A stretch of DNA of 34,224 nucleotides from a virus, in IMG/VR virus record IMGVR_UViG_3300021433_000013, positions 1 through 34,224 of that record; one strand, 5' to 3'. Under the pieces are notes generated by a model that made no database searches, was not told the origin of the DNA, and saw nothing but the letters and a program-made list of their open reading frames with translations. Each line of letters starts with the position of its first letter. Position 1 is the first letter of the stretch. Shown one piece after another: positions 652-27,013 of this stretch. The translations under genes were made by a program, and so were the position numbers.

Positions 652-1344
652 TTATGTGACATCCGACCATGTGCGTCCCGATTTAATACAGTATACTCGT
701 TTAACAGGGATATTAAATATAGCTGCTATTTCAGAACATTTTACACGCTTTTTTAATAGACCTTTAATCTTCTTCACCTGAGATATATTTAAAACTCCCG
801 CTCTATTCCGAGACTGCTCAACCAAGGAAGACCATCTACAGTTATCAGGACCATATGACTTGGAAGAATCTAACCTATCAATTGTTAAGCTGTCTTCATA
901 CCCATTCATAATTGCCCATTCATAAAATACGTTAAAGTCTTGTAACCATTCTTGGCATATCCCAATACCTTTCTTGCCATACTTCTCATAACAGGTGGAA
1001 TTTGTTTTATAACATCTCGTCTTCATCCCATGCCAAATAGATAAAAGCCGAGGCCACCTTTGGTCTTTAATTTTTATAACATAACGCCTATCCGAGCACT
1101 TACAAACCTTAGACCCATCTTTAAAATGCTTATATTGACCTCTTAATCCATTCCCACATCGCAAACATTGCGCTTCAACATAAAGAACCTTGCGTAATGA
1201 ATTTACTTTAGGCAATAACATGCCTACTTCTCTTGTAATAATTACATATCCTACTACTTCATTGACTCGATTAATTCTCTGTCTCATACTTCCCTCGTTA
1301 GTTCTTAAGCCGACATATGGACTGCAATCCTGTCGGCTTACCAT
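652..1344 (-). CDS. Free-standing homing-type endonuclease (HNH-like with C-terminal HTH)
   Basis: This 230-residue protein has a Cys-rich N-terminal part (CLRC, then CKC), a nuclease-like core (RWPRLLSIWHGMKTRCY, later GICQEWLQDF, IDRLD, PDNCRW) and a C-terminal helix-turn-helix (SEIAAIFNIPVKRVYCIKSG) that looks like the DNA-reading segment of homing endonucleases. The core matches the phage family in which IDR-D and DNCRW motifs recur. I chose ATG 1344 because AAGGA lies 7 bases upstream; an upstream TTG at 1365 has no such signal. It sits between the ejection protein and fibre genes and is paralogous to the gene at 6807-7562. It is probably a selfish element cutting genomes that lack it. 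Confidence 0.75.
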   Translation of the reverse strand: MVSRQDCSPYVGLRTNEGSMRQRINRVNEVVGYVIITREVGMLLPKVNSLRKVLYVEAQCLRCGNGLRGQYKHFKDGSKVCKCSDRRYVIKIKDQRWPRLLSIWHGMKTRCYKTNSTCYEKYGKKGIGICQEWLQDFNVFYEWAIMNGYEDSLTIDRLDSSKSYGPDNCRWSSLVEQSRNRAGVLNISQVKKIKGLLKKRVKCSEIAAIFNIPVKRVYCIKSGRTWSDVT

Positions 1345-1369
1345 TAATGCTTCCTTTTTAATCAAACTA

Positions 1370-1378
1370 TGTTATACT
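1370..1378 (+). promoter_or_regulatory. Extended -10 promoter candidate for an antisense mini-gene
   Basis: The plus strand reads TGTTATACT, which fits an extended -10 element (TG, one base, then TATACT with 5 of 6 matches to TATAAT). The -35 region is poor (TTCCTT), as is usual for extended -10 promoters. The predicted start, near 1385, lies just upstream of a Shine-Dalgarno and a short ORF on the same strand. It faces against the surrounding leftward late genes. Confidence 0.4.
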
Positions 1379-1405
1379 GGTCACTTAATTAACCGGAGAC
1401 TAAGC

Positions 1406-1483
1406 ATGACATATTCATTCCTTGTTTTTCTAGTGATATCGTTCCTCTTGCGCGATATATTTGTTACATTTGTAGATGACTAA
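1406..1483 (+). CDS. Possible 25-residue hydrophobic peptide (antisense moron candidate)
   Basis: The ORF encodes MTYSFLVFLVISFLLRDIF followed by six more residues. One hydrophobic stretch spans residues 4-15, and the end is acidic. CGGAG lies at 1394-1398, 7 bases before the ATG, and an extended -10 promoter candidate lies at 1370-1378. The stop overlaps the stop of the convergent ejection gene by three bases. The 114-base gap between the two flanking leftward genes holds no convincing minus-strand ORF, so this mini-gene is what the gap contains. It could be a membrane-active peptide or an independently transcribed moron. At this length chance is a real alternative. Confidence 0.35.
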   Translation: MTYSFLVFLVISFLLRDIFVTFVDD

Positions 1484-2796
1484 TCATGAGAGGCTCGATA
1501 TAACAATTCCATTATTGACGCTAAAGTTACAGGCGCTCCAGCAGCTTTAGCTACTTTTAATGCGGGTTTATATACTTTGTCTTTAAGCTTATTATATTGA
1601 CGATACCTATTCTGACCATGAGCCATTAAATCAGCTATATCTTGATGCCCACTTTCCGCCAATTTAGCCCTCATGGCTTCGATCAATCGTTGACGTGTTT
1701 TCGATGCTTCAATGCCGTGGAGTCTTTCTGCGCCTGAAGAAGATTTTGTTAATTGATGCGCATGTTTCCCTAAGTCGGATTGCAAAGTAAATAATGATTT
1801 GTAGTCTCCTTTTTTAGCAGCTTGCATTAGTTTTCTGTACGGCTCTGTATTAGGTAGAAATTGAGGAATGTCTTCTAATACATTTGCCATCGCGGAAAGG
1901 GTTTCTTCTGCGAGATTACTGGCTTTACTAATATATTTAGCAGGTATTTCTTTTTTAATTCCAAATAATTTAGAGTTTTCTGTGCCACGCGGAAGATTAG
2001 CTTTTGTAGCCCAGTTGGTAATTTCAGGATGAATAAAATTTTGTGCTTCTGCTTCTGGAATTCTGATTCTTAATAAATCACCAACTTCATCACCGCCCAT
2101 TTTCCTTGCGGAATAACCTAGTGCGGCTTCTGGGTTATCTGTCAACGTTGCAAAATTTGGATGATATTTTTCAGCCAACAAGCTTGATTGCAAAATTTTA
2201 TTTGCATTTTCTGGGGTTGTTGCATGATACAAATCAATATACTTATCATTTATATTTACTTTTCGTGTTTCCGCTAGTTTTTCAGCTTGTTTTAATGCTT
2301 TTGCGGCCATACCACGTGTTAAAGGAAGGTCAGCAGCAGCCTTAGCAGCTGTTTTTAATCTGCCCCCAGTCACTTTAGCCGCTGTCTTCAATCCAGTCCC
2401 TGCCGCTTTTCCTGCGGCTCCCACTGGCAATGCAAGTGAGCTAGCAAATTGAATAGCCTTATCCGCTGTTGTAGGCTCTCCAGTTATTCCAAACATTTTT
2501 CCGTAATCATGTTCACCAAAATGCGGCACATATTCAGCGCCTGGATTGCCAATAAGCTTGGCACCTTCATATGGTAAATTAGCCAATCCCGCAGCTCCAC
2601 CCACTAATCCAGCAGCAATATTTCGTGGTAATTTATTAAAAAATCCTTGTTCTGGTTGTGTCTTCAATCCAATTGTTGAATAAAATTGTTCTTTTGGTAC
2701 GTGAGCATAATATTTTGAATGCAAAGCATCAGCTAGTTTCTGATCGTCCACATGATTATATTGTGGGTATTTCTGTCTTATCTCTGCAAGATTCAT
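1480..2796 (-). CDS. DNA ejection / internal virion protein with possible ADP-ribosyltransferase-like domain
   Basis: This 438-residue protein is the third in a row of probable ejection proteins upstream of the fibre gene. Its N-terminus (MNLAEIRQKYPQYNHVDDQK, then LADALHSKYY and PKEQF) is a pattern I know from the starts of phage internal virion proteins. Residues 60-170 are Ala/Gly-rich, with weakly hydrophobic segments suited to membrane passage. Residues about 186-292 look different: DLYHATTPENANKIL, TDNPEAALGYSARKMGG, LLRIRIPEAE and KEIPAKYI resemble an ART fold (a YH pair at 190-191, A-x-x-Y near 228, Glu near 283). Residues 300-420 are helical. Delivery into the host with DNA is known for this gene position; ART activity is inference. 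Confidence 0.6.
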   Translation of the reverse strand: MNLAEIRQKYPQYNHVDDQKLADALHSKYYAHVPKEQFYSTIGLKTQPEQGFFNKLPRNIAAGLVGGAAGLANLPYEGAKLIGNPGAEYVPHFGEHDYGKMFGITGEPTTADKAIQFASSLALPVGAAGKAAGTGLKTAAKVTGGRLKTAAKAAADLPLTRGMAAKALKQAEKLAETRKVNINDKYIDLYHATTPENANKILQSSLLAEKYHPNFATLTDNPEAALGYSARKMGGDEVGDLLRIRIPEAEAQNFIHPEITNWATKANLPRGTENSKLFGIKKEIPAKYISKASNLAEETLSAMANVLEDIPQFLPNTEPYRKLMQAAKKGDYKSLFTLQSDLGKHAHQLTKSSSGAERLHGIEASKTRQRLIEAMRAKLAESGHQDIADLMAHGQNRYRQYNKLKDKVYKPALKVAKAAGAPVTLASIMELLYRASHD

Positions 2797-2797
2797 A

Positions 2798-3859
2798 TTA
2801 TAACCCCAATCCTAGAGGATCATTGTTTTCACTTTGTTGTCCAGAGGCTGCTGGCACCGGATGTAAAGTTTCATTTGCGTCTTTATAGTCCCTACTTAAA
2901 GAGTTTTTTAGACTTCTTAAGCGTCTTCTATAAGCATCATCTGTTTCAAAAGTATGTCTATCCAATATTTCTCGTGCTGCTTTAATGCTTTCATTAGTAT
3001 TAGGCCATCCTTTTGCCTTAGCATAAGATTCTGCTGCTTCTAATACTAATGATGCGTGTTGCGCTCGTTGATTTGGTTTATATCCAATAATAGTAGTAGG
3101 AGAGGGCGCAGAAATTAAATCATCAATTTTCTTCGTGACTTTAGGAACACCAGTTACAATATTTTGTAATTGTGTTTTCATCGCATTAGTTAAAGGCAGT
3201 TGATTATTAATTTTTCTTAGCTCTTTAGCCTTATCAAATTCTTCTCGCTGCTGTAGTTTCATCTGATTAAATTCAAGCGCTCTTTTTTCCTTTTCATCTG
3301 GAGATTGCGCATCTAGGTCTATCCCATATTTATGCTTAATAAATCCTTTAATTAATGGATTATTCCGCAACGCTTGCATATCAAATTTTCCTTCCTGATT
3401 AGAAGGAGGATTTGCCATTTCCTTGGGAGTATTTTGAGGTTGTTGTTCCGCAGGAAACATACCTTGTCCTTGACCGAATGGCATTTGAGTTTCTTGTGGT
3501 ATTGTTTGTTCTTCATTCATGCCTTCTTCGTTTCCAGCTGGCATGCCATTACCACCGCCAAGCATTTGAGCCAAAGCTTGAAATTGTTTCATTTCATAAC
3601 TTGGATCATTCTTATTTTTTAATCCTTGCAATTGTTGCTCGAAAATCATTTTCTTCAAGGCATCAAACTGGTGAGCAGCATTCATGGAACGTTCACGCAT
3701 TGCTAAATCTGCGCCATGAAATTTCGCCATTTCTTCCATCTGTTGACGTTGCAAAGCAGCCGTTCTTGCTTTTTGCAGAATATCATTAATTGCGCCCGTA
3801 CCTTGTGTAAGGTAATCCACGGGCAGCCTTCCAATTGGAATTGCGCCAGTTACTGCCAT
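2798..3859 (-). CDS. Internal virion / DNA ejection protein, Gln-rich
   Basis: This 353-residue protein lies between two other probable ejection proteins, 1 base before one and 2 bases after the other, so it belongs to the same late transcript. The N-terminal 100 residues are helical and rich in Ala, Gln and Met. Residues 100-165 are a low-complexity Gly/Met/Gln/Pro linker. The C-terminal half is charged and helical (for example AESYAKAKGW and DDAYRRRLRSLKNS). No enzyme motif is visible. In P22-like phages this slot holds proteins ejected with the DNA (gp7, gp20, gp16 class). The assignment rests on position and composition. Confidence 0.55.
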   Translation of the reverse strand: MAVTGAIPIGRLPVDYLTQGTGAINDILQKARTAALQRQQMEEMAKFHGADLAMRERSMNAAHQFDALKKMIFEQQLQGLKNKNDPSYEMKQFQALAQMLGGGNGMPAGNEEGMNEEQTIPQETQMPFGQGQGMFPAEQQPQNTPKEMANPPSNQEGKFDMQALRNNPLIKGFIKHKYGIDLDAQSPDEKEKRALEFNQMKLQQREEFDKAKELRKINNQLPLTNAMKTQLQNIVTGVPKVTKKIDDLISAPSPTTIIGYKPNQRAQHASLVLEAAESYAKAKGWPNTNESIKAAREILDRHTFETDDAYRRRLRSLKNSLSRDYKDANETLHPVPAASGQQSENNDPLGLGL

Positions 3860-13045: not shown

Positions 13046-15379
13046 TCACGTAAACATCTTTTGATGCTGTTCAGCTATCATATTTGGTTTAAAACTTGTT
13101 TCCCCAGTGTATTGCCCATAAGCAAACGTTAACATCAGAGCGTCGGCACAGTCACAAGATGGCATTCCGCGCTTCTTGAGGTCGTCTTTACTTTCGATGA
13201 GCATTTGTCCATTACTTCGATGCTTGTAGCCAAGGCCACAAAGGTCAGTGTGGAGTTCGTCGCTATCGGGAATTTGTACAGGAATCTCTCCCATGAACCA
13301 GTCTCGCATTTCTGACCATAGCTCAGCTCTAAGATTACCGAACCGCTCCTTGTCGTTGGCACTTCTCGCCACATTAATTCCTTCGACACATTGATACCCC
13401 ATTTCTTGCAGTCTATCCACAACGCCTGCGCCAATACCGATACAGTCGATGAACACTTTAAGTGGGCGTAATTCATCGATCATACGTTTCAATCTTCCCG
13501 CCAGTTCCATTGTATTGTAATTGCGTAATATTTCTAAATCATACGCAACCCGAGATTTACGCTTAATAATAACGCAACGGTCATTATCGCCGATAGCAGG
13601 GTCCACTCCAATAATAAGCGGGGTGGTGATTTGCGTTTCGATTTTAGAACGCCGAGCAGCGAGTACATAACTGCTAGATATAAAAGTATCATCAACAGGA
13701 TTGAGGAACGCATCGTTAGCACAGCAAGGGTACTCCTGGTTGAAGAGCTTCACGCCTAAGTCATGGTCGGCTGAGAACTGACCAATCTTGAACCGTCGCC
13801 AATAGATGTGCTCACGCGTCATGCCATTGTGACTGTAGATATCCATTAGCTTTTCTTCGTCTTCTGTGAGGTCAATTTCATCTGGCTTTTGGCTGAAGAA
13901 TGTTCGGTACTCAGGTTGCCAGTACCAAGGAACGAAGATAGCTTGAAAGTCTGAGCGTCCTTGTTCGGCTGAAACCCAACCCGAGTGGTAGAAGTTTCCG
14001 ATGCCATTGGCTGTTGATTCGAGAATAATCTCAGTGTCGTTTTGGTCGCCGACTGCTTGCATTAATCCTTGGGCGTGTTCGGCGGCGTTTGGCCAGAAGG
14101 CGACTTCTGAACCATGTAGTAGTTGAACAGTTTGAGATCGACCAGTCCCTTTAGAACCAGCTGTTCCAATCGCATATCCGCTATCGATGGAATCAAAACG
14201 CAACTCTTTAACTGAGTCTCGTCCAGCACGTGGACATAGCCCACTGGGTAGATGTTCATAATACCTCTTCGTCATTTCAAATAGATTCTTAGTCGCTGCT
14301 GATTCATGCGTCAATATGAATGTCTTAATACCACGGTTAGTAATCGTCTTGTGGAAGTAGCGGGCCTGAACGTATGTTGAGTTGTGTGAAACTAGGCCTT
14401 GGCAAATATAAGTTTTAGTACTGGTCTGTAAGTCCACAACAACAATTTCACCCAAAGATTTAATGGAAACCACCTTGGCCCATGGCTTAATCCCAGAAGT
14501 CGCTGCTTTCCCAGGCAATTCATGACCGACATGCCATTCATCATTAGTAAATCTTGTTGGTCTACATCTAGCGAATAATTCCATTAAATAAGGCAACCTA
14601 TGAATATCTAATCTATGTACAGGTTTATCGCCTAATTTATTTTTTTGACCGCATTTAGTACGCCTATCAATCACTTCACAATATGGGATATCTCTTTTAT
14701 TAAAATACTCTTTTATACGTGCAAGAATTATACCATCAGTTTGATGTATACTTAATCGTTTGGCTCCTTTAGACCCTCTCTGACTGCCTTCGCCATCAAT
14801 AATACCTGCAATCCATCCATCTTCATGAGTTAAACAATCATAATTAGGTGGACGAGCAGCTATTCTAATAACATCACCGACAATCAAGTCACCAATCTGT
14901 CTCCATTGCTGATCGTCGCCACCGCGTTTTCTCGATAGCATTCGATGATCGCCCGTGACTTCTAGTCTTGCACCATTGTCTAAGACCACTTCGAAAGCCT
15001 CTTTTATAAACTCGCGTTTCTCTTCAACAATACAAGTTCTAAACTTACGAGATTGTTTTCTCCCTACTTGAGTTAATCCTGGAGACTCTTCATCACAAGC
15101 AACAAGCTTATCACCAATCTGAATATCCCCTATTTTTAACCACCTATAATCAGACGTTAACACTTGCATATTTTTTGACCAGCAGCACCCTTGTTGCCGA
15201 CCTTTCAGGATATAGGCGCGTATCTTCCCGCGCTCTTCGAGCTGCGCTTCGAGGCGTTCGTGAATATAAGTTTGGGCGCGATTAAGTTCGAAGGGTATAA
15301 TTTCACCTGACTTTGTACGTATCTTGAAGAAGTTCTCAGAGAAGAACTTGAAGTCTTTAAGTTTGTTGAGGTCTGTCAT
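13046..15379 (-). CDS. terL: Terminase large subunit interrupted by an intein
   Basis: The 777-residue precursor is a packaging ATPase-nuclease split by a 268-residue intein (residues 66-333). After splicing the host protein has 509 residues. The Walker A motif is formed only by splicing: GRQQGC (60-65) joins ST (334-335). Further motifs are SEVAFW (424-429), the coupling motif ESTANG (454-459), and nuclease acidic residues in GVDPA (D593), FIDCIG (D645) and CDCADALML (D743/D746). The start overlaps the preceding gene by 23 bases. It lies immediately upstream of the portal gene. Without splicing the ATPase would be dead, so packaging depends on intein activity. Confidence 0.88.
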   Translation of the reverse strand: MTDLNKLKDFKFFSENFFKIRTKSGEIIPFELNRAQTYIHERLEAQLEERGKIRAYILKGRQQGCCWSKNMQVLTSDYRWLKIGDIQIGDKLVACDEESPGLTQVGRKQSRKFRTCIVEEKREFIKEAFEVVLDNGARLEVTGDHRMLSRKRGGDDQQWRQIGDLIVGDVIRIAARPPNYDCLTHEDGWIAGIIDGEGSQRGSKGAKRLSIHQTDGIILARIKEYFNKRDIPYCEVIDRRTKCGQKNKLGDKPVHRLDIHRLPYLMELFARCRPTRFTNDEWHVGHELPGKAATSGIKPWAKVVSIKSLGEIVVVDLQTSTKTYICQGLVSHNSTYVQARYFHKTITNRGIKTFILTHESAATKNLFEMTKRYYEHLPSGLCPRAGRDSVKELRFDSIDSGYAIGTAGSKGTGRSQTVQLLHGSEVAFWPNAAEHAQGLMQAVGDQNDTEIILESTANGIGNFYHSGWVSAEQGRSDFQAIFVPWYWQPEYRTFFSQKPDEIDLTEDEEKLMDIYSHNGMTREHIYWRRFKIGQFSADHDLGVKLFNQEYPCCANDAFLNPVDDTFISSSYVLAARRSKIETQITTPLIIGVDPAIGDNDRCVIIKRKSRVAYDLEILRNYNTMELAGRLKRMIDELRPLKVFIDCIGIGAGVVDRLQEMGYQCVEGINVARSANDKERFGNLRAELWSEMRDWFMGEIPVQIPDSDELHTDLCGLGYKHRSNGQMLIESKDDLKKRGMPSCDCADALMLTFAYGQYTGETSFKPNMIAEQHQKMFT
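14381..15184 (-). mobile_element. Intein (LAGLIDADG type) inserted in the TerL Walker A motif
   Basis: The element encodes C66 to N333 of the terL product. Block A starts CWSKNMQVLT and continues DIQIGDKLVA. Block B holds LEVTGDHRM (Thr142 and His145). A single LAGLIDADG-like motif is GWIAGIIDGEG (189-199). The C-terminal blocks are VVDLQTSTKTYICQG and GLVSHN, with extein +1 Ser334. All class 1 splicing residues (Cys1, TxxH, His-Asn, Ser+1) are present, so splicing should work. Only one clear LAGLIDADG motif is visible, so the endonuclease may be reduced or may dimerise. The flanking residues rejoin as GRQQGC-STYVQ. Confidence 0.88.
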
Positions 15380-19002: not shown

Positions 19003-19237
19003 CAATTAACTCTCGCAAATAAATATTAGCAGCTCTACGACCCACATTCATCGCCTGAATAGGCTTGTCACATTCTGCCATTGCTGTTGACCACACGTCA
19101 ATGTATGTAATGAGGATCTCATCACGCAAGTCATATGGAATTCTGGGCAGCAATCTGCCCAACCATTCAATATCAAAACTAAGCAGATAAATGTTGCGAA
19201 ATTCTGCCACTTCCTTTATGAATTCCATCCATTTCAT
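18986..19237 (-). CDS. Conserved hypothetical protein
   Basis: The start could be ATG 19237 (MKWMEFIKEVAEFRN) or ATG 19258; an upstream TTG at 19279 is less likely. From 19237 the product has 83 residues, with YDLRDEILITYIDVWSTAM and NVGRRAANIYLREL, a pattern I associate with small phage proteins of unknown function. It overlaps the preceding gene by 59 bases and the cold-shock gene by 17. Confidence 0.6.
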   Translation of the reverse strand: MKWMEFIKEVAEFRNIYLLSFDIEWLGRLLPRIPYDLRDEILITYIDVWSTAMAECDKPIQAMNVGRRAANIYLRELIDERYR

Positions 19238-19586
19238 TGGCTTTCTTTCGGTCGTCATGAAGTTTATACAATATATCAAAGAACATCTTTTTATTCTTTT
19301 GATGTTCTGAAAAACGAGGCTCGCAAGAACACCACGCGATTTGTTCCGGCATATGAAATATGCGAGTACCTTTTAAACCGCGATCATTTAACATTGTTCT
19401 CAGTCTCGAATGAACTTCAGACCTAGATCCATTCATCCATCCTAATGAAATTAACAAAAAATCACTAATTTTAATGGGATATTTAGTTTTGCAACCGTTC
19501 CAACACCAACCATGTTCGACAAACTTATCTAACCAGTCGTCTTTTAACAATAAATCCCAGAAATCTTTTGTATAAAATATATTCAA
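19179..19586 (-). CDS. Hypothetical protein directly beside the candidate origin
   Basis: A start at TTG 19586 is favoured because AAGGAG lies 9 bases upstream. The frame extends further upstream into the iteron repeats, which are unlikely to be coding. The resulting 135-residue protein is basic and rich in aromatic residues (LNIFYTKDFWDLLL, WCWNGCKTKYPIKISDFLLI, HMPEQIAWCSCEPRF). I recognise no domain. Its place between origin and downstream genes suggests a replication accessory role, which is a guess. Confidence 0.55.
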   Translation of the reverse strand: MNIFYTKDFWDLLLKDDWLDKFVEHGWCWNGCKTKYPIKISDFLLISLGWMNGSRSEVHSRLRTMLNDRGLKGTRIFHMPEQIAWCSCEPRFSEHQKNKKMFFDILYKLHDDRKKANEMDGIHKGSGRISQHLSA

Positions 19587-19620
19587 TTTAATCAACTCCT
19601 TCAATAAAACAATAAAAAAA

Positions 19621-19904
19621 TGTGAGCGATACCCCAAATGTGAGCGATCACTCACACTATCGCTCACCGCTACAACCCGCGCCAGTGCTGGGTTGTGACG
19701 AAAAATGTGAGCGATATGCGCGTGAGCGATACCTTGAAACACTCTACGCGCATAAGTGCTATATAGTAGCTATATATATATTATTTATCATACTATAGAG
19801 AGATCACTCACATCACTCACATCGCTCACCAACCCAGTACTGGCGCGGTCTGTAGGCGTGAGTGATCAAATTTTATCCCTCACGCATCGCTCACATCGCT
19901 CACA
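19621..19904. other. Candidate replication origin with 13 iterons in two inverted arms
   Basis: The decamer TGTGAGCGAT and close variants (core GTGAGYGAT) occur 13 times. Forward copies start at 19621, 19639, 19706, 19721 and 19857. Reverse copies (ATCRCTCAC type) start at 19647, 19659, 19803, 19812, 19821, 19875, 19886 and 19895. Spacing is 9 bases in the tight groups (19803-19830 and 19886-19904). The centre (about 19755-19798) is AT-rich, with CTATATAGTAGCTATATATA, suited to unwinding. The block lies against the stop of the primase-helicase gene. Iterons, AT-rich core and adjacent replication gene are the standard signs of an origin. Confidence 0.75.
19677..19848. repeat. 19-base inverted repeat pair framing the AT-rich core
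   Basis: CCGCGCCAGTGCTGGGTTG (19677-19695) and CAACCCAGTACTGGCGCGG (19830-19848) are inverted copies with 18 of 19 positions equal. Each arm contains a palindrome of its own (CCAGYRCTGG), and the left arm can also fold as ACAACCC...GGGTTGT (19672-19696). The pair is centred on about 19762, in the AT-rich core, giving the origin a symmetrical layout. Confidence 0.85.
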
Positions 19905-21696
19905 TTTCCCGATAGCCATACGGTTTTAGCTGTGGAACGTAGTAGCTATAACGCAATCGACCCGTACCTTTTTGTAATTTCATTTTAGTTAATATGTCGC
20001 CCATCCTTTTTAAATCACCGGAAGAGGGTTTGTCGTAGCCCATTTCAGATAGAACTTGTGAGGCATTCATCCATTGGCACGGGTCACGATCCCAATAGAA
20101 GGCGTTGTGGAATTTCTCATAGAACGGATCGAGATATTCATACGATTCATTTGAACTATTCAACTGCTGAAGTTCCTGTTTCGATAGATTGGGCGATTCA
20201 CCGTGTAAATACATTTCGTAAATTTCACGCCAGACTTGTTGCATGTCTAAACCATGATAAGTATTGATAGGCTCTGTGATGCTCACAGTCCACCATCTTC
20301 TGTTTCCTGTAGTATCAATCAGAAACTTTGATTCGTTCACTGTAGCAGCAAAGACAGTGCGTCTAACCATCTTGCTATCTTTCATGGCGTAAGGCTTGCG
20401 GATTGAATCTTCATCAAGGTTAATAAACCCTTTGAGCCTGTTTGAGTCAGCTTTCTTAAAAGTCGCGTCTAATTCTGCTAGTTCTGCTATCCAGTATTGT
20501 GAAGCCGTCAAAACGTCATCTTTTTTGGATGGATCTAAAATCAGGCCACCTTTAATGGCTCTGAACTCTTTGGGCGCTAGAGACATGATAAAGGACGACT
20601 TATGTGTGTATTGCTCCCCATGTATTACCAACACACCTTGAGGGGCAAAATTACCGGTAGAAAAGGCAGCCGTGACCGCTGAAATCATCCAACGTCTGAT
20701 TAGCACATACGATAAGTCGTCATTGGTGGTTCTGATACAGGTTAAGAACTTGGTGAAGATGCCATGGTCAACCAGTGGGCGGCTTAAAATCCAGTCGCAA
20801 ATCGGGTGATACCTGTCTTCTAAAGCAATTGCGTCCAGGTGTTTGTCGATTCTTCGAACTGGCATGTCATTCATAACAGCAAGGTTTGTGATATGGGTTA
20901 GGGCTATGTTTTCGCTTTCTTCATAATAAAATTCTTTGCCAGGTACGATCACATCACGACTACGGTTCATCATGTTCCAACGCACTTTTATGCTGAAGCT
21001 CTCAAGTAAATATTCAAGATTGCCGGTAGTGTCCAATGGGCGCGGTTTTTTGCTATCCGTCATGTGTGGGTAGCCATGATAATTAAATTCATCATTCTTT
21101 GGCTTGGAATCATTGAACATCATTTTAATTAATTCCATGTCCACTTCGCCAGACTCGCAATTAAAATCAGCTAAATCCCATCCTTTGGGCAGCATCATGA
21201 AGCTAGGATCTAAATAATGAACTTCATTACCTAAGTCGATAAGAATTTCAGACAAAGCTTTCATCGCTTTAAAGCCAGCCTCGTCATTATCGGGGAATAA
21301 ATATACTTTCTTGTTGGTTAAGTGTTTGGTATCTATTTTCTTAACAGCACTTGAGCCACCAAGCCATGTTAATACGTTATATTCTGGGAATAATTCAGCA
21401 GCTGCGTCCGCTGTTTTCTCACCTTCTACAAATAATATCGGTTTGTCGGGGAATTTCTTTAGTTCTTCGATTCGGTAAACAGGTTTATGAGGCAAACCCG
21501 AAATACCACCCTGAACTAATTTGTCATCTTTCATTGCCCACGGTCGGACTTGTTTTTTTTCTAGCTTATAATCCCAGTACCTAACCGTGTAGCAGATAAG
21601 CGCACCATCAATCGTTTTATACTCCCAAAATCCTTGATTTTCCCCGAATATCTTGTCTAAATGTTGTTTGATATTTGTCACCTGTGCTATGCTCAT
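19900..21696 (-). CDS. Primase-helicase: TOPRIM domain fused to VirE-type P-loop ATPase
   Basis: This 598-residue protein carries a TOPRIM fold at about 85-165 (ILFVEGEKTADAA, FPDNDEAG with D136 and D138). A superfamily 3-like VirE domain follows at about 300-500: Walker A GEQYTHKSS (360-368), Walker B IAELAEL (403-409), FAATVNESKFL and the arginine motif GNRRWW. VirE-domain proteins with TOPRIM serve as phage or plasmid replicative primase-helicases. The Walker A is unusual: His replaces the Gly before Lys. A C-terminal domain at 510-598 is winged-helix-like. The last codons overlap the final iteron, so the gene and origin form one unit. Confidence 0.85.
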   Translation of the reverse strand: MSIAQVTNIKQHLDKIFGENQGFWEYKTIDGALICYTVRYWDYKLEKKQVRPWAMKDDKLVQGGISGLPHKPVYRIEELKKFPDKPILFVEGEKTADAAAELFPEYNVLTWLGGSSAVKKIDTKHLTNKKVYLFPDNDEAGFKAMKALSEILIDLGNEVHYLDPSFMMLPKGWDLADFNCESGEVDMELIKMMFNDSKPKNDEFNYHGYPHMTDSKKPRPLDTTGNLEYLLESFSIKVRWNMMNRSRDVIVPGKEFYYEESENIALTHITNLAVMNDMPVRRIDKHLDAIALEDRYHPICDWILSRPLVDHGIFTKFLTCIRTTNDDLSYVLIRRWMISAVTAAFSTGNFAPQGVLVIHGEQYTHKSSFIMSLAPKEFRAIKGGLILDPSKKDDVLTASQYWIAELAELDATFKKADSNRLKGFINLDEDSIRKPYAMKDSKMVRRTVFAATVNESKFLIDTTGNRRWWTVSITEPINTYHGLDMQQVWREIYEMYLHGESPNLSKQELQQLNSSNESYEYLDPFYEKFHNAFYWDRDPCQWMNASQVLSEMGYDKPSSGDLKRMGDILTKMKLQKGTGRLRYSYYVPQLKPYGYREM

Positions 21697-24593: not shown

Positions 24594-24714
24594 AATTATA
24601 TTGATATGTGTATTGCTGACTGGCTGTGTAACGCAGCCAGAGCTACCGGATGATAATCCATACCCTTATGTTCAAGGAGATATGGCATTGATTGAAATAC
24701 AAGGAGTTATATGA
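24586..24714 (+). CDS. Small lipoprotein, 42 residues
   Basis: The product begins MRKIILICVLLTGCVTQPEL: two basic residues, a hydrophobic run and the lipobox LTGC before Cys14. The mature part is about 29 residues, acidic and Pro-rich. It overlaps the previous gene by 8 bases, and its TGA shares bases with the ATG of the Sak4-like gene (ATGA). Both candidate CsrA sites lie inside its 3' half, so its translation and that of the next gene may be controlled together. Confidence 0.6.
   Translation: MRKIILICVLLTGCVTQPELPDDNPYPYVQGDMALIEIQGVI
24671..24706 (+). promoter_or_regulatory. Pair of candidate CsrA-binding sites over the Sak4-gene ribosome-binding site
   Basis: ATACAAGGA (24697-24705) matches the CsrA consensus core RUACARGGA at 9 of 9 positions and includes the Shine-Dalgarno AAGGAG of the gene at 24711. 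A second match, GTTCAAGGA (24670-24678), fits 8 of 9. The two GGA motifs are 27 bases apart, within the distance over which one CsrA dimer is known to bridge. The phage encodes CsrA at 18331. Binding here would block Sak4 translation; this is untested inference. Confidence 0.45.
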
Positions 24715-25490
24715 GCATTTTAGATAACATCATTACAACTAAACCTGGTGCGCCACGCATTACTGTGTACGGCAAGCCTGGTATCGGAAAGTCAACTCTT
24801 GCAAGCCAATTCCCTGATCCATTATTCCTACTGACTGAAGACAATGAACTGCCTGGCATTCAAGCGCTGCCTGTCGTTCATACATTCACAGAGATGTGGA
24901 ATAACGTTAAATCACTATTGGCACTAGAAGAATTGCCGTTTAAAACGCTAGTGGTAGACAGTATTAGTAAACTGGATGCGTTGATTGTGGAATATACCAT
25001 CGATCAAAGCCCTCCTGGCAAAGACAAACAGGCCGTTAAGACGATTGCGCAAGCATTTGGTGGTTATGGTGCTGGTTTTGAAAAGGCTGCCAGTTTACAC
25101 CGCGCGTTGAAGTCTCAGTTCGATAAGTTTAAAGAACGTGGTATCACTGTTATCTATATTTCGCATCTTGAGATCAAGAAATTTAAGTCACCGGAAGCGG
25201 AAGACTATGACATTTTGTCCATTGTAATGAACTCGGATAAATCACGCATCGTTTACATTGATGATGTTGATGCGGTACTTTATTGCAAACTCCAGTCGCA
25301 CACCGTTGAAACAGATTCTGGCAGAACGATTGTTAAAAGCACTGATAATCGCGTTATTTCCGCAGGCATGAATGATGTTCATGTGAGTAAGAATAGGTTT
25401 AATATGCCTGCTTCTATACCAATGACATTTGAAGCGTTATGTAAATACATTCCGTTTTATAAGGGATTGAAGCATGATAAAAGTGAGTGA
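24711..25490 (+). CDS. Sak4-like RecA-fold ATPase (AAA_24), single-strand annealing recombinase
   Basis: The 259-residue protein has Walker A GKPGIGKST (21-29), Walker B TLVVDS (79-84) and a RecA-like core with ISHLEIK (residues about 150). This is the AAA_24 or Sak4 layout: short RecA-like ATPases used for annealing of single strands in phage recombination. Sak4 proteins work with a cognate SSB, and the DUF669-like SSB gene lies two genes downstream. A possible CsrA site overlaps its ribosome-binding site. Confidence 0.8.
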   Translation: MSILDNIITTKPGAPRITVYGKPGIGKSTLASQFPDPLFLLTEDNELPGIQALPVVHTFTEMWNNVKSLLALEELPFKTLVVDSISKLDALIVEYTIDQSPPGKDKQAVKTIAQAFGGYGAGFEKAASLHRALKSQFDKFKERGITVIYISHLEIKKFKSPEAEDYDILSIVMNSDKSRIVYIDDVDAVLYCKLQSHTVETDSGRTIVKSTDNRVISAGMNDVHVSKNRFNMPASIPMTFEALCKYIPFYKGLKHDKSE

Positions 25491-25779
25491 AGAGCATATG
25501 AAAAACCCAGCGTTTAAAGCAGCCCATGATACATGTATCAAGTTGTTACATGTCATTCAGAAAGATTCGAAGACAGTTGATCATGATATTCTGGAATATC
25601 ACGCAGCTGAGTATTACGGTACGATTTGTTCAACGATGATGAACACCATCTTGATCAACATGGTGAAAGGTATGGATATCCCTGACAAAGAACAACGTGA
25701 CAATTACTACATGAATCTTGTCTCAGAGTTAGGGAAACATGCCATTCAGGCTTATTTGATACAACTTTATTCACATTAG
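25474..25779 (+). CDS. Hypothetical protein between Sak4-like and SSB-like genes
   Basis: The 101-residue helical product (HMKNPAFKAAHDTCIKLLHV, STMMNTILINMVKG) overlaps the Sak4-like gene by 17 bases. No catalytic motif is seen. Conserved position between a recombinase and its SSB suggests a helper, but I do not recognise the family. Confidence 0.6.
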   Translation: MIKVSEEHMKNPAFKAAHDTCIKLLHVIQKDSKTVDHDILEYHAAEYYGTICSTMMNTILINMVKGMDIPDKEQRDNYYMNLVSELGKHAIQAYLIQLYSH

Positions 25780-25789
25780 GAGTTAAATT

Positions 25790-26320
25790 ATGTCGTTTTG
25801 GCAAGGTCAAGCAGGTAAATCATTAACAGGTAGCGCTGAAGATTCTTTCAAGAGTGGTTTTAGTCCAATTCCTGATGGTACGGTTGCGGTTGCGATGATT
25901 AAATCATTTGAGTTCGTCGAAAGTGCTGAATATGCTACAAAGTATCAAGTAAGATGGAAGATTGCGGATGGTGAATTTAAGAATCGCGAAGTTTTCCAAA
26001 ATATTTACGCATTTGACAAAGACCCTGAGCGCAATGAAAAAGCTAAAAACATGATGATGCGTATTTACAAATTATGTGGCCATAAACCTTCGCATAATAA
26101 TGCGCCTACCAATCAAGACTTGGCGCCAATGCAAGGTAGTTTGTGTACGATTAAAATAGGCATGTACGTTGGGAAAGACGGTAAAAAACGTAATTCTTTA
26201 GATGAAGTTCATGAATCAAATTATGCCCCTGAGCAACCAGCAGAAGGATTGTATGACTCCGCTTTGAGTCGTAATAGGACCGGTGGTGCGCCAGTGGATG
26301 ACTCCGATATACCATTCTGA
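25790..26320 (+). CDS. DUF669-like single-stranded DNA-binding protein
   Basis: The 176-residue protein has an OB-fold-like centre (VAVAMIKSFEFVESAEYATK, YQVRWKIADGEFKNREVFQN) and a flexible tail ending DDSDIPF, the acidic tip by which SSBs recruit partner proteins. It is preceded by AGGAG. DUF669 proteins are typical SSB partners of Sak4 and Cas4-like exonuclease genes, which flank it here. It would coat single strands during replication and recombination. Confidence 0.8.
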   Translation: MSFWQGQAGKSLTGSAEDSFKSGFSPIPDGTVAVAMIKSFEFVESAEYATKYQVRWKIADGEFKNREVFQNIYAFDKDPERNEKAKNMMMRIYKLCGHKPSHNNAPTNQDLAPMQGSLCTIKIGMYVGKDGKKRNSLDEVHESNYAPEQPAEGLYDSALSRNRTGGAPVDDSDIPF

Positions 26321-26332
26321 TCGAGGTGATAA

Positions 26333-27013
26333 ATGGATTTAGCTAAAATAGTAGATGAAGCGATTTTGCAACGCACTAAATCCGAGCCACGGCATTATAT
26401 TGGTGCTAGTGGCATCGGTAAAACCTGTTCACGTGCCATTTGGTATGATTATCATGCCGTAGAAGGGATGGAGCTGACAGCGCAAGAAGAACGAACAATG
26501 GAGATTGGTCGCCGTTTAGAAGGAATGGTGATTGACTACATTATGGCAGCTGGATTTAAAGTGGAAGTCGCCACACAAGAAAACGATCACTTGTTGTGTT
26601 ATGACAAAAACCTATCTATTTTCCGTGGTCATATGGATGGTTTGCTCTATATCGGCGAGACATTGCCGGTTGTCTTGGAGATTAAAACCGCTAAAGCTGA
26701 ACGTTTTGAGAAATACGCAAAAGAAGAGGGAGGGGTCAAAGTTTGGTCGCCTGTTTATTATGCGCAAGTACAATCTTACATGGGCATGAGAGGACTGAAC
26801 GATACCTTATTTTGCGTAATTAACAAAAATAACAGTGATTGGCGCATGGAATGGGTAAAATACGACGATATTTTCTATCATGAACTAAAAATAAAAGCGT
26901 CTTTGATTGCTGAATCTGAAAATCCTCCTGACAAAATTAACAATTCGCCATGGTATTATGCGTGCCAACGTTGCAAATATAAAAAGATTTGCCATTCGGA
27001 GGTTAAGCAATGA
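26333..27013 (+). CDS. Cas4/RecB-like PD-(D/E)XK exonuclease with likely Fe-S cluster
   Basis: The 226-residue protein shows the nuclease core GHMDGLL (D102), VVLEIKTAK (E116, K118) and YYAQVQSY (Q145). Four Cys residues (C32, C211, C214, C220; CQRCKYKKIC) match the pattern that holds an iron-sulfur cluster in Cas4 and AddB. Such enzymes resect DNA ends in phage recombination. Position after Sak4 and SSB completes a recombination module. There is no CRISPR context, so Cas4 here means the fold only. Confidence 0.8.
   Translation: MDLAKIVDEAILQRTKSEPRHYIGASGIGKTCSRAIWYDYHAVEGMELTAQEERTMEIGRRLEGMVIDYIMAAGFKVEVATQENDHLLCYDKNLSIFRGHMDGLLYIGETLPVVLEIKTAKAERFEKYAKEEGGVKVWSPVYYAQVQSYMGMRGLNDTLFCVINKNNSDWRMEWVKYDDIFYHELKIKASLIAESENPPDKINNSPWYYACQRCKYKKICHSEVKQ

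Follow-up and report, generated by a model that had tools for sequence, protein, structure and literature searches.

A mirrored iteron block at the end of a VapE-type primase-helicase gene as a probable replication origin of a tailed phage

The IMG/VR record IMGVR_UViG_3300021433_000013, analysed here over its full 34,224 nucleotides (hereafter the window), contains a two-armed block of 13 iterons (19622–19903) that is very probably the replication origin of a tailed phage, with the adjoining primase-helicase acting as an initiator whose C-terminal domain would bind the iterons. That it is an origin, as the original prediction had it, is well supported by related phages, many of which have a block at the 3′ end of the homologous primase-helicase gene. 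Mirrored iterons around an AT-rich core, 3′ of an initiator gene, are known from PICI/SaPI elements; what is new is a variant of this layout in ordinary tailed phages. In our judgement it is evenly poised whether these blocks form a class of tailed-phage origin that is widespread and, it seems, hitherto undescribed. In such a class, inner and outer mirrored tiers would surround an AT-rich core, the whole being tied to the stop codon of the gene for a VapE-type primase-helicase; the DNA-binding domain and the iterons would switch together as a cassette, and the layout would persist along with a spacer site for a third factor. Occurrence of the block across many tailed phages helps in finding the origins of phage genomes that have not been annotated. 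Moreover, the specificity of initiator for iteron is directly testable, and Bas97 (PQ850606.1), an E. coli K-12 phage of the BASEL collection, carries the same kind of block at about 38450–38770.

Anatomy of the iteron block

By pattern count, the block is made up of twelve exact copies of the 9-mer GTGAGYGAT and one mismatched copy (GTGAGGGAT, at 19875 on the minus strand). On the plus strand five of these iterons run forward and eight in reverse, which departs from the single orientation of direct-iteron plasmids. The exact copies begin at 19622, 19640, 19707, 19722 and 19858 (plus) and at 19647, 19659, 19803, 19812, 19821, 19886 and 19895 (minus). Only one other exact copy occurs in the window (13041, minus strand), and 200 first-order Markov randomisations yielded a mean of 0.5 exact copies per whole window and a maximum of 1 per 290 bp. 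The window holds a single block of this kind, its next best cluster consisting of five copies on one strand. Thirteen copies around an AT-rich core had been described in the original prediction as decamers; the number and arrangement hold, but the repeat unit is a 9-mer, found mostly in the context TGTGAGYGAT.

Read along the plus strand, the outer left group (19622–19667) comprises two forward iterons (19622–19630 and 19640–19648) and two reverse ones (19647–19655 and 19659–19667). A spacer carrying a 25-mer separates it from the inner left iterons (19707–19715 and 19722–19730, both forward), which face a core of 70 bp and 70% A+T (19732–19801), the proposed melting site. Facing the core from the other side are three reverse inner iterons in tandem at a 9-bp period (19803–19811, 19812–19820 and 19821–19829), followed by a second spacer with the inverted 25-mer and by the outer right group (19858–19903), where one forward iteron (19858–19866) precedes three in reverse (19875–19883, the mismatched copy; 19886–19894; 19895–19903). 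In each mirrored arm, accordingly, a spacer that carries a 25-mer stands between the inner iterons and the outer ones. The stop codon of the primase-helicase gene (19900–19902) falls within the last iteron, in agreement with the predicted overlap.

The two 25-mers extend a pair of inverted 19-mers noted previously at 19677–19695 and 19830–19848, whose 18 of 19 matches we confirm and neither of which was given by any shuffle. The left spacer element, CTACAACCCGCGCCAGTGCTGGGTT (19670–19694, plus strand), overlaps the first 19-mer and contains the near-palindrome CCAGTGCTGG; the right element (19831–19855, minus strand), which overlaps the second, is its inverted partner with 22 of 25 matches. 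Across the blocks compared, pairing of one spacer with the other in inverted orientation was significant only in the window and in two other loci (L107 and L119), and was rejected as a feature of the whole class. Dyads within the spacers were likewise rejected, p falling below 0.05 in 4 of 33 cases, which is not significant. An exact search of IMG/VR for the spacer core returned 24 single matches besides one record (L002) that is identical to the window and, being the same phage, was discounted as independent evidence. Six further IMG/VR loci (L004–L009), retrieved with an 18-mer iteron pattern, held single pairs without a block that we took to be chance occurrences, the one in L008 being a gene start (GTGAGCGATGTGAGTGAT). 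A Tatlockia MAG locus (L165 3407) carries GCCAGTACTGAGTT, which resembles the spacer element of the window, in a spacer of its own iteron block. IHF-like sites, with one mismatch allowed, are present in some spacers; in several enteric-phage blocks (L012, L013, L017, L050, L054 and L061) such sequences face each other where the window has its 25-mers. Rfam and tRNA searches gave no match.

Recurrence of the block in related phages

A DNA similarity search for the block in phages found no match, and the iteron word itself varies from phage to phage. A blind scan for 9-mers clustered on both strands was applied to 18 phages that encode a homologous primase (20 kb of the record in one case). Most have a single outstanding block of about 260–300 bp with an AT-rich middle: clear in KA2-1, Alux-21, PT1, Arya, Bas97, ECO1230-10, Alexa, MW202473 and SFCi1, and weaker in ep3, Mica, Persinger and Vibrio 1.009. 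The layout was drawn for, among others, the first seven phages of this list. The scan found no block in FoX3, Murka, PPpW-3, Mano and the 20 kb of phiWae15. Several enteric phages have a distance of 2–4 kb between the block and the primase gene. As a positive control, the same scan of P4 ranked the annotated crr, just 3′ of the alpha gene, first and ori second.

Further loci extend this picture. Clusters of six or more copies were present in 37 of 81 loci (L003 and 80 IMG/VR loci), as against 5 of 81 Markov controls. Among the 76 usable IMG/VR loci, 51 had any cluster and 25 had none; the best both-strand cluster began between −110 and +350 of the primase stop in 34 (2.5 expected; simulated maximum 10), and 19 of these 34 blocks begin within 7 bp of that stop. 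On bacterial genome contigs a block occupied the same interval in 22 of 59 loci. Of 34 blocks, 22 had inner groups that were uniform and opposed, compared with 4.5 expected and a maximum of 14 in 20,000 permutations, a count that includes close relatives and so has a smaller effective n.

The most instructive relative is a sister phage (L266) whose portal is 90% identical to that of the window at the amino acid level and whose DNA is about 80% identical on both flanks of the replication module. Between the two, the primase is 53% and the block 39–40% identical. The block of the sister phage nevertheless begins at the stop codon and has the same layout, although its iteron is another one, GGCGTAAC, present in 13 copies (one mismatch allowed; ten exact). 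A spacer element identical to that of the window at 25 of 31 positions over the aligned stretch, flipped in orientation, is present in one of its spacers. From this comparison it follows that the iteron was replaced completely while the layout and the spacer element were retained, and that the initiator changed with the iteron. The original prediction was staked on close relatives with the primase-helicase also having the repeat layout, and the sister phage keeps both. The two phages thus constitute a natural experiment, with the same architecture, a different iteron and an initiator that diverged in step. Divergence affects the primase, the origin block and the gene after it as one unit (window 19227–21617; about 988–3381 in the sister phage) while the rest remains about 80% identical, a pattern that looks, from the sequences, as if it arose by cassette exchange or under diversifying pressure. 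No primase of this kind is encoded in the 36-kb record of a more distant phage (L271, portal 45%).

The initiator and competing explanations

The primase-helicase gene (19900–21696, minus strand) encodes 598 amino acids with matches to PF05272 (E 2.9e-43) and Toprim_3. According to an AlphaFold2 model (41 sequences; mean pLDDT 89.7), the protein is a combination of the fold of SaPI PriRep1 with a TOPRIM primase: PriRep1 (7pds) aligns with residues 202–589 at Z 27.1, the next row reaching 15.0, and a T7 primase fragment aligns with residues 5–195 at Z 14.3. Homology to PriRep1 is also evident from the 7pds profile match (E 1.3e-42). At the C-terminus, the last ~60 residues fold into a strand-helix-helix-strand domain, which the PriRep1 alignment covers (about residues 532–588; 19933–20103, minus strand; pLDDT about 87–95). 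Folded alone, this winged-helix-like domain gave weak winged-helix matches (Z up to 5.5), and Foldseek found no significant match for it in isolation. The closest relative of the primase on a genome contig (L160, 48%) belongs to a Legionellales MAG, which hints at the host group.

This C-terminal domain is apparently the best candidate for the iteron reader. In SaPI Rep and SCCmec Cch2 it is the C-terminal domain that binds iterons 3′ of the protein's own gene (PMC7581432). Among the enteric relatives the iteron tracks the C-terminal domain more closely than the helicase, as judged by sequence identity: Arya and KA2-1 share an iteron, with 84% identity in the helicase and 91% in the C-terminus, whereas ECO1230-10 and Arya have different iterons, with 82% and 61%, respectively. 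Mica stands at 56–57% in the helicase and 63–65% in the C-terminus relative to those enteric phages with which it has the iteron in common. Across 30 blocks, a partial Mantel test of the C-terminus given the helicase gave r 0.17 and p 0.004, a small effect in which close relatives are not down-weighted; the converse test, of the helicase given the C-terminus, was near significance (r 0.10, p 0.07).

Under the proposed mechanism, the C-terminal domain would bind the 9-bp iterons, such that, by way of the inner iterons, two oppositely oriented sets of initiators would confront one another from the two sides of the AT-rich core. The core would then melt and two helicase rings could load and depart in opposite directions, with priming by the TOPRIM domain of the same protein. 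Bidirectional firing is consistent with the facing inner arms. The outer iterons may provide additional cooperative or regulatory binding, and the paired spacer elements may bind a further factor, such as a DNA bender or another host or phage protein. GC skew, put forward earlier as a check, was uninformative with respect to the origin: it follows gene direction, and its cumulative minimum lies at about 24 kb, the point at which the genes switch direction.

Other phages and plasmids can use a separate protein as the initiator that binds their iterons, and the block might be an origin at which another phage protein binds the iterons and then loads the primase-helicase. One candidate is the product of the next gene (19179–19586, minus strand; 135 aa, TTG start, AAGGAG upstream), which starts beyond the block and diverges between the window and the sister phage along with it. 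We consider this improbable. The product belongs to no known family in our search and an unrelated gene takes its place in the sister phage, whereas the blocks accompany the primase-helicase gene across otherwise different phages, and in SaPI Rep and Cch2 it is the helicase that binds, through its own C-terminus (PMC7581432). Between the two binders suggested originally, we favour the primase-helicase.

That the block serves instead as an operator array, with the downstream gene or the primase operon under its transcriptional control, is quite unlikely. It is intergenic, between two co-directional genes, and in the enteric relatives a promoter-like TACAAT follows the last iteron; yet thirteen sites in 282 bp, a long AT-rich core and mirrored inner arms are more than ordinary operators possess, sequences resembling promoters are no more frequent around it than chance would give (6 found, 10.3 expected), and in many phages the block has a fixed place at the 3′ end of the gene for the initiator. 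Least credible, and only barely so, is a role for the inverted halves as a single-strand hairpin, whether as a signal for single-strand initiation or conversion or as a cruciform. Folded as DNA, the block strand does reach −76.9 kcal/mol (z −13.4), with a contribution from the 25-mer pair, but facing iterons automatically yield some folding. Other blocks of the class fold far less (z −0.4 to −6.5, several near random) and few have paired spacers, so the hairpin is not a shared feature. An origin read by the C-terminal domain of the primase-helicase remains the preferred interpretation.

Relation to known origins and other features of the window

The mirror-image arms had been thought unusual, a view that does not stand for initiators of this kind: PICI/SaPI origins have been described as an AT-rich region between two sets of iterons, directly 3′ of rep (PMC6092414; Ubeda 2007 cited therein), and the arrangement recurs in many phages with VapE-type primase-helicases. 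According to the authors of PMC6092414, this two-set layout is always found in PICI origins and in no other known bacterial replicon. The window shares with these elements the two iteron sets flanking an AT-rich region, the position immediately 3′ of the initiator gene (with the stop codon inside the last iteron) and an initiator of the VapE/PriRep1 helicase family (PF05272, 7pds). Unlike the PICI/SaPI satellites, the phage of the window encodes its own portal and terminase; a PICI satellite was rejected as its identity in view of its P22-like portal, terminase and head closure genes. Its initiator also differs in carrying a TOPRIM primase domain. A further possible difference is the division of each arm by a spacer that bears an inverted 25-mer.

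As in the window, crr of P4 lies just 3′ of the alpha gene, and P4 iterons occur in both orientations, some in tandem at a 9-bp period. However, P4 has two separate cis sites (ori and crr) where the window has one block, which places the window outside the P4 type, and the P4 iteron (TGTTCACC) differs from GTGAGYGAT. In the SCCmec Cch2 origin the C-terminal domain of the helicase binds repeats downstream of its own gene, as predicted for the window, but that origin consists of three direct AAGTG iterons and deletion of the inverted repeats there left binding unaffected (PMC7581432). Our searches, which covered open-access papers, found no description of such origins for these tailed phages, a result that falls short of proving novelty.

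Two other features of the window deserve mention. The large terminase gene (ORF 13046–15379) is interrupted by an in-frame insertion of about 267 codons (14382–15183, minus strand), an intein that begins with Cys, ends with His-Asn before Ser and has intein-domain matches; the terminase of the sister phage is uninterrupted at that site (GRQQGCSTYVQ). Finally, a divergent operon (24711–27013, plus strand) encodes a Sak4-like annealing protein, a single-strand binding protein and a Cas4/YqaJ-like exonuclease, constituting a phage recombination module.
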